This document shows positions 10,471 through 12,110 of a stretch of DNA of 59,853 nt, piece by piece; positions within the stretch are counted from its first letter, which is position 1; the number at the start of each line of letters is the position of its first letter. The DNA is from Bacteroidia bacterium (lineage in GTDB: Bacteria > Bacteroidota > Bacteroidia > CAIKAF01): NCBI GenBank assembly GCA_016742095.1, contig JACVCJ010000007.1, positions 1 through 59,853 on the forward strand, written 5' to 3'. The notes under the pieces were generated by a model, which saw only the letters and a program-made list of their open reading frames with translations, had not been told where the DNA came from and made no database searches. The position numbers were made by a program, and so were the translations under genes.

Positions 10471-10497
10471 AAAAAAAACATACCCTTGCAGGTATGT
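10471..10497 (-). terminator. Rho-independent terminator of the thioredoxin-like gene
   Basis: On the minus strand ACATACC and GGTATGT arms (within 10478-10497, 6-base loop) are followed by eight T residues (10471-10478). It ends the fulvocin-like/thioredoxin transcription unit 25 bp after the stop at 10523. Confidence 0.8.
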
Positions 10498-10522
10498 TGA
10501 AAAATGTTTTATCGTATGGTTT

Positions 10523-11407
10523 TTAGCGGACCAGCAGAATATCGATCCGTTCTTCGAACCACTGGCGGTAATGCAGTGAATTTACACGTACGAAACCCTG
10601 GTTCTCGAAATGAATAGCCCCGTCCTTACCGATAATGCAGTAGCGCGGCACATAACTGATGTTGAGGAAACTGCTCATCCGCGAATCCAGATCGTACAGC
10701 ACGTGTTCTTCGGCTATTTCGCCGCCGGCCTCACTCAGGTAGGCCTTCATTTCCTTCATGGAGTCCTCTTTACCGGTATTTACACTGTAGATCTTTACGA
10801 CGTCCTCGTCGGCATAGATCGTACGCAGGTCCTGCAGCATAGGCAGCGCTTCGCGACAGGGTTTACAGTGGATGGTCCAGAAATCAAGCACCACTACCTT
10901 ATTCTCGAACAGCTCTTTAGAGTCCAGCGTATCGCCTTTTGTATTCAGCAGCGAAAAGCTCGGCAGTTCGATATGTGTTTCGCGCTGGTGTGCGTAGGAC
11001 GAGTACAGCGACGAAAAATAATACGCCGTAGCGATCAGTGCCATCAGGGTAAGCAGCAGGAAAACGGCGGTGCGTATCCTGCTTTTGCCCGCTTTGAGTA
11101 CGTACCAGAAAAGTACATACGACAGCGCATGCAGCGTGGAGAACACAAAACAGTAGATGGAAGGCGATTCTTCAGCAACGTACTGCAACAGGAAATACAC
11201 GGCAGGGTAAAACACGGCTACCGGCATAGGCAGCAGCCAGTGCATATTTCCCAGGTAATTACGGAGGCGGTAGGTACCGAGACTCCCGATAAGTGCCAGG
11301 AAAATAAGCACAATGCAGGTCACCGTATAATTCTCTACGGAATGTACACTGATGCTGATGATAAAGAACAGGATACCTACAAGAAGTACCGAGACCGCTT
11401 TATTCAT
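10523..11407 (-). CDS. Membrane-anchored TlpA-like thioredoxin protein
   Basis: 294 residues. Residues 1-135 form about five membrane helices, and residues 145-294 form an extracytoplasmic thioredoxin-like domain with an AhpC/TSA-TlpA look: VVLDFWTIHCKPCREALPML contains the redox pair CKPC. A cis-Pro loop (ISYVPRYCIIGKDG) is present near the C terminus. Such proteins reduce or shuffle disulfides in the periplasm. It lies 58 bp downstream of the cysteine-rich fulvocin C-like lipoprotein gene on the same strand and before a shared terminator, so it may handle the disulfides of that protein. Confidence 0.85.
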   Translation of the reverse strand: MNKAVSVLLVGILFFIISISVHSVENYTVTCIVLIFLALIGSLGTYRLRNYLGNMHWLLPMPVAVFYPAVYFLLQYVAEESPSIYCFVFSTLHALSYVLFWYVLKAGKSRIRTAVFLLLTLMALIATAYYFSSLYSSYAHQRETHIELPSFSLLNTKGDTLDSKELFENKVVVLDFWTIHCKPCREALPMLQDLRTIYADEDVVKIYSVNTGKEDSMKEMKAYLSEAGGEIAEEHVLYDLDSRMSSFLNISYVPRYCIIGKDGAIHFENQGFVRVNSLHYRQWFEERIDILLVR

Positions 11408-11465
11408 AGGTTAATGGTGTTCCGGAAAGCAGGGCGGCAGGCCGGGATAACCGGCGTACGATGGC

Positions 11466-12110
11466 CTATTGTGAAAAGTCGCAACGACCGTTGCAGGAAT
11501 ATAACCAGAGATAACCGCAACCGATCTCACTGCCGGCGCAGCTGCCTGCACAGGCTACCTGGGTACCGCAGAGGTTTACGGCCTTGCTGCAGTTACAGTT
11601 TTTGATACGGTCGATCACCGGAGGCTGGGGACCGGCGGCTACGGCATTGTAGTCTTCCAGGCTACCGAAAGCGTAGTACAGCTGCTCAATAGAGAAGTAC
11701 TGACGGGCTTTCAGGTTAAAACCGGACATAAAATCGCTCATGAAAGTCTGGTATTCCTCACTGGTAATATCAAACTCCTTGTACGTGATGCGGTTGTCCA
11801 GTTCGTTGATGGTAGCGACCTGATCGGCATCGAATGTTGCCATTTCGCGCAGGTTACGGATCTTGTCCTTCCACAGTTCGTAACGGTTTTCCGGGGTCAT
11901 TCCGTTGTACAGTTCTTTCTGCTGTTCAATAGGCAGCTGAACGAACGCAAGGCGGTCATAAATTACAGAACCGGTAGTAGGTGTTGTTTTCGCGACAGGT
12001 GCAGGATCTGTTGTTGAAGTGTTCGGCGTAGCCGATGAAACAACCTCTTTTTTGTCGCAGGAAGCCAGCAATAAGCAGGGCAGAGCCAGAATTAATAATA
12101 ACTTTCTCAT
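11466..12110 (-). CDS. Fulvocin C-related cysteine-rich lipoprotein
   Basis: 214 residues from the ATG at 12110, which gives a clean lipoprotein signal (LLASC, Cys18); upstream in-frame ATGs up to 12233 are less likely. A Thr/Pro-rich linker leads to a helical region (about 50-150) containing ENRYELWKDKI. The C-terminal 43 residues carry eight cysteines: 172, 174, 181, 187, 191, 198, 206 and 210, with CNC near the start, GCGYLW and CNGRC at the end. The number and order of cysteines recall fulvocin C, a myxobacterial bacteriocin with four disulfides, and the helical part fits the NCBI family named after it. Whether this protein is a bacteriocin is unknown. Confidence 0.75.
   Translation of the reverse strand: MRKLLLILALPCLLLASCDKKEVVSSATPNTSTTDPAPVAKTTPTTGSVIYDRLAFVQLPIEQQKELYNGMTPENRYELWKDKIRNLREMATFDADQVATINELDNRITYKEFDITSEEYQTFMSDFMSGFNLKARQYFSIEQLYYAFGSLEDYNAVAAGPQPPVIDRIKNCNCSKAVNLCGTQVACAGSCAGSEIGCGYLWLYSCNGRCDFSQ

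Follow-up and report, generated by a model that had tools for sequence, protein, structure and literature searches.

Two adjacent reverse-strand genes of a Bacteroidia bacterium encode a lipoprotein of the fulvocin C family and a membrane-bound thioredoxin, and the same pairing recurs in other Bacteroidota. The window, meaning the whole stretch of DNA that was analysed, comprises 59,853 nucleotides (GenBank assembly GCA_016742095.1, contig JACVCJ010000007.1). With moderate confidence, we read the pair as a lipid-anchored pro-bacteriocin and its dedicated membrane-bound periplasmic thiol-disulfide oxidoreductase, analogous to pediocin and PedC. The product of gene 1 would be a fulvocin C-type bacteriocin precursor held on the envelope by its lipid anchor, with the C-terminal 40-45 residues forming a compact four-disulfide effector, to which a helical pro-region and a flexible linker serve as carrier. 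Following export, the product of gene 2 would form, shuffle or proofread the disulfides of its partner, and the peptide may then be released by proteolysis and kill related bacteria. The sequence-only reading, which had described a disulfide-rich peptide with its own oxidoreductase, was right both on its facts and in this main idea.

Table 1 Features of the gene pair, in window positions.
Feature	Position	Strand	Basis
Gene 1: fulvocin C-related lipoprotein precursor, 214 aa	11466..12110	(-)	NF033852
Lipoprotein signal peptide and lipobox cysteine, residues 1-18	12057..12110	(-)	N-terminal sequence MRKLLLILALPCLLLASC
Helical pro-region (predicted), residues 53-150	11661..11954	(-)	AlphaFold2 pLDDT of roughly 90 and above
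Eight-cysteine fulvocin-like domain, residues 171-214	11469..11600	(-)	Conserved Cys columns; pLDDT 75-94 by block
Gene 2: membrane thioredoxin, TlpA/ResA-like, 294 aa	10523..11407	(-)	Pfam and ResA fold match
About five transmembrane helices, residues 1-139	10991..11407	(-)	Predicted 3-21, 24-45, 60-76, 83-105, 110-139, low confidence
CKPC active-site motif of gene 2	10856..10867	(-)	CxxC invariant in 16 partners
Intrinsic terminator 3' of gene 2	10477..10498	(-)	Hairpin stem and energy

The earlier coordinates and gene content were correct, as was the claim that both genes end at one terminator. Gene 2 follows gene 1 on the same strand after 58 nt, and the single good terminator, a real hairpin (9-pair stem, -10.6 kcal/mol, z = -3.2), lies after both genes; judged from the sequence, the two are likely to be co-transcribed. 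The neighbours are ordinary, with plus-strand MsrA and rhomboid genes on one side of the pair and a Band_7 gene, a small Arc-like gene, a DUF4395 gene and mnmE (the last recognised by eye) on the other. A comparison of insertion sites revealed that synteny near the Band_7 gene is not conserved in relatives, and it gave no evidence of horizontal gain. A phage origin of the locus was rejected, there being no phage match.

The product of gene 1 matches the NF033852 profile ("bacteriocin fulvocin C-related") with 99.3 bits, against a cut-off of 35 bits, over 149 of 150 profile positions. The match extends from residue 64 to 210 and spans the helical region as well as the cysteine domain, which places gene 1 in the fulvocin C family. 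All eight cysteine columns are conserved across the family, and in gene 1 the eight cysteines fall between residues 172 and 210. The N-terminus is a typical lipoprotein signal with the lipobox LLASC (Cys18), and the cysteine at this position is retained in most relatives. AlphaFold2 models a confident helical bundle, flexible segments at residues 22-50 and about 155-166, and a compact cysteine domain with small beta elements; both the lipoprotein signal and the helical region ahead of that domain had been recognised previously. In the model, the flexible linker before the cysteine domain is where release would be expected. A search of solved structures, which took in the short cysteine domain only as part of a longer piece of gene 1, gave no convincing fold match, and a sequence search likewise retrieved no solved structure. 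The surface display envisaged in the sequence-only reading is unsupported, since the residues that follow the lipidated cysteine (C-D-K-K-E-V) match none of the known Bacteroidetes surface-export signals located after Cys+1, namely K-(D/E)2, Q-A-(D/E)2, SDDDD or SDDFE (PMC5080379).

Fulvocin C itself is a purified bacteriocin whose peptide sequence dates from 1981 (Tsai and Hirsch 1981, as cited in PMC8708641). A full-text literature search returned almost nothing on fulvocin C genes since 1981. As reference, we used a version of the published peptide sequence with the C-terminus WVYCACNGNFY. Aligned with this, the window domain is identical at 18 of 41 residues and seven of its eight cysteines align, in line with the fulvocin C-style spacing that had been claimed; none of 2000 shuffles in which the cysteines were held fixed scored as high. 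Taken together, the family profile and these shuffles rule out a chance resemblance. The spacing between the fourth and fifth cysteine does differ, with 3 residues in the window versus 5 in fulvocin C.

A contig scan with the single window protein as query gave no matches. A scan that included the fulvocin C reference sequence in the alignment found a Corallococcus member. The closest genomic match to fulvocin C is a Myxococcaceae gene (L058:1276-1935). Its product ends in ANCSCSTASDYCVPLTFCTLGTSCTYTAWGCGTNWVYACNGDCLY, with 33 of 43 residues (77%) identical to the reference peptide, and the match starts at the same ANC. A wrong reference sequence would hardly match a genome of the right family so closely. 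In L058 the fulvocin C-like segment comes last, behind an N-terminus resembling a signal peptide and a helical pro-region, so that fulvocin C most likely represents the C-terminal 45 residues cut from a longer, L058-like precursor. Proteolytic release of the window peptide would be compatible with this origin of fulvocin C. In the published fulvocin C the final cysteine sits one or two residues away from its position in every genomic family member, and the old protein sequence or the reference version used here may be wrong there; the C-terminus of L058, WVYACNGDCLY, suggests that the last cysteine may be misplaced in the published sequence. The window protein thus shares with fulvocin C and the NF033852 family a helical pro-region and a C-terminal eight-cysteine domain with the motif CxCS..SDxC ... 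GCG..W..xCNG, but differs in being lipid-anchored and followed by a membrane thioredoxin gene. In the myxobacterial NF033852 copies, by contrast, the signal peptide mostly looks ordinary and a linked thioredoxin is absent throughout.

In the Bacteroidota samples the family is rare and patchy: a phylum-wide sample of 395 genomes contained 4 carriers and a class-wide sample of 395 contained 8, while one large family (f5) had 12 in 299 and the window's own family 1 in 16, these 16 being the entire sample for its order. It is commoner in Myxococcaceae (14/96 genomes), the family from which fulvocin C comes, and is also present on Streptomyces plasmids.

We surveyed the 18 intact Bacteroidota loci with an eight-cysteine domain, the window included. 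A membrane thioredoxin is the next downstream gene on the same strand at 15 of these, in six families (14/17 when the window is left aside); the partners have 270-310 residues, N-terminal membrane helices and a CxxC thioredoxin domain. Gaps between the two genes are mostly -53 to 58 nt, with two of 252 and 400 nt, and the surroundings of the linked loci otherwise differ. The intact loci that lack the partner are L021, L022 and L030. A nineteenth copy (L023:4990-5593, genome G146) is frameshifted and has the cysteine domain with no thioredoxin neighbour. No partner was seen beside four relatives, three in G459 and one in G619, in which the helical region is retained and the eight-cysteine domain is missing, giving a Fisher p = 0.008 for 15/19 vs 0/4, where the four are non-independent (two genomes, three paralogues). 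These relatives (L033 and L034 in G459, L035 in G619) have different cysteines (CFWC or CLVC), and several of the helical-region copies in G459 lie among repeats. Thioredoxin-like genes are frequent in Bacteroidota, at roughly 1-2% of genes by candidate counts, and relatives of gene 2 occur elsewhere too, as would be expected if the two genes were functionally unrelated chance neighbours; with 15 of 18 loci in six families linked amid otherwise different surroundings, the survey strongly disfavours such adjacency and we regard it as very improbable.

None of the 16 Myxococcaceae loci has a partner within about 5 kb (two of them have under 1 kb downstream). In Bacteroidota, fulvocin-like genes are regularly followed by TlpA-like genes, which supports a recurring oxidoreductase partner there; because the Myxococcaceae copies manage without a linked partner, it is not essential to the family. 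Within Bacteroidota, loci whose gene 1 sequences have diverged further tend to have more diverged gene 2 sequences as well (Mantel r = 0.37, p = 0.004), shared ancestry being contained in this figure. Only one genome of the window's family has gene 1, and no other genome there has a full-length gene 2. In f5, full-length matches above 230 bits come only from pair-carrying genomes, although such scores are partly circular as the search model was built from these linked copies. The same family has four to five weaker full-length relatives (98-137 bits) in the absence of gene 1, which shows that proteins built like the partner extend beyond the paired loci; no extra small cysteine-rich genes were seen beside these unlinked relatives. 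The idea that gene 2 forms a fulvocin-specific clade was dropped, as the tree, which is weak and has long branches, does not separate linked from unlinked copies.

Other arrangements were also observed. At L026, gene 2 is present twice in tandem. The pair is often followed by a gene for a small DUF1573 protein, in most cases one whose signal resembles that of a lipoprotein (L024:6360-6743, L029:6352-6741, L031:155-544), and at L021 a DUF1573 gene (L021:5488-5904) comes directly after gene 1. L051:3693-5659 has a cysteine domain with no helical pro-region, together with another small protein that shares its signal and N-terminus; here the membrane thioredoxin lies between the two small-protein genes, with a DCC1-like oxidoreductase gene upstream.

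The polytopic protein with a CKPC thioredoxin domain described in the sequence-only reading agrees with the helix prediction and with Pfam matches of gene 2 to AhpC-TSA, Redoxin and Thioredoxin_8, all above cut-off. The AlphaFold2 model contains a confident thioredoxin domain and five membrane helices at low confidence. Loop charges and the five predicted helices favour an N-in, C-out topology, which would place the thioredoxin domain in the periplasm, the membrane part being a low-confidence model. Across partners the residues within the CxxC vary, and the conserved thioredoxin proline, P254, is nearly invariant. The fold matches ResA with a target TM of 0.84, and TlpA and CcmG are also among the nearest solved relatives; all three share the domain fold and CxxC but have one anchor, as opposed to the approximately five membrane helices of gene 2. 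The CcmG structure carries the title of a reducing oxidoreductase, and ResA/CcmG-like domains are often reducing rather than oxidising in known systems. By this analogy, a role of gene 2 in shuffling or proofreading disulfides is no less likely than one in oxidation, and with such nearest relatives "oxidoreductase" should not be equated with oxidase.

The resemblance to ResA, TlpA and CcmG also fits a protective role, whereby gene 2 would reduce or reshuffle the peptide disulfides at the producer membrane and confer immunity as opposed to folding. The two-gene unit has no other obvious immunity gene, and the tandem copies at L026 could be read in the same way. We nevertheless consider this role unlikely: the Myxococcaceae and three Bacteroidota loci have the precursor and no gene 2, and the pro-region itself could confer immunity. 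On either account gene 2 probably acts on the disulfide bonds of the gene 1 peptide, and our preferred reading remains that of a folding partner.

The Streptomyces plasmid precursors carry a fused N-terminal CxxC segment (FDASCGTC or similar). This segment has no Pfam or NCBIfam match and no profile support for a thioredoxin or DCC fold. A plasmid of Streptomyces sp. NBC_00012 has two fulvocin-type genes in tandem (L045:4151-5194 and L045:5500-6489) that share 270 codons at 99% nucleotide identity. Their cysteine domains are only 55% identical in nucleotides and 47% in amino acids, with all eight cysteines kept, which points to a module swap or strong diversification. As the copies diverge only there and the cysteines are kept, the comparison would mark the cysteine domain as an exchangeable effector part. 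Plasmid genes of Rubrobacter radiotolerans (L143:2989-4149) and Thermomicrobium roseum (L146:3013-4029) have the Streptomyces-type N-terminal CxxC segment and a Tat-like region, followed by unrelated cysteine-rich C-termini, with S8 serine peptidase genes nearby; the same segment preceding different C-termini again couples CxxC to cysteine-rich tails.

The Streptomyces tandem copies also bear on whether gene 1 encodes a toxin at all. It could instead be a disulfide-rich envelope lipoprotein (structural, sensory or redox carrier) with gene 2 as its redox partner, given that a lipid anchor is unusual for a released bacteriocin, that a small DUF1573 lipoprotein is often third in the unit and that the window's two genes come with no transporter or protease. 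We find this doubtful in view of the homology to a purified bacteriocin, the patchy distribution of the family and the confinement of divergence to the cysteine domain in Streptomyces. In a less probable extension of the pro-bacteriocin reading, Bacteroidota would possess a class of lipid-anchored, disulfide-rich bacteriocins, every member having a five-helix membrane thioredoxin of its own for folding and relying on proteolysis for release or presentation. In actinobacteria and Thermomicrobium the helper would be built into the precursor as a CxxC domain at the N-terminus, with the cysteine-rich tips exchanged like cartridges.

Pediocin, thermophilin and sublancin each have a known or proposed helper of the thioredoxin fold dedicated to them; co-expression of the CxxC protein PedC improves the potency of pediocin, which needs PedC to be fully potent (PMC4919988). 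Like the present pair, pediocin PA-1 with PedC, thermophilin with BlpGst and sublancin with BdbA/BdbB combine a bacteriocin gene with a CxxC thioredoxin-fold helper, but these systems are Gram-positive and their peptides are unrelated to gene 1. To our knowledge, PedC, BlpGst and BdbA/BdbB are not five-helix TlpA fusions. The mark of a bacteriocin oxidoreductase, an adjacent conserved thioredoxin-fold gene, is found at 15 of the 18 intact loci in Bacteroidota. The bacteroidetocins, which are peptide toxins from this phylum too, are described as class IIa-related (PMC6671954), in contrast to the NF033852 match of the window protein. Release of a C-terminal toxin from a larger precursor has a parallel in halocins H4 and C8 (PMC12893001). 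We found no description of a fulvocin-thioredoxin partnership in the literature, the NF033852 family having already been named.

The probable precursor layout of fulvocin C can now be seen, and its family is found in Bacteroidota, where it has a candidate folding partner, as well as in Myxococcota and Streptomyces. An active peptide would constitute a disulfide-rich antibacterial from Gram-negative bacteria that comes with a ready-made helper for co-expression.
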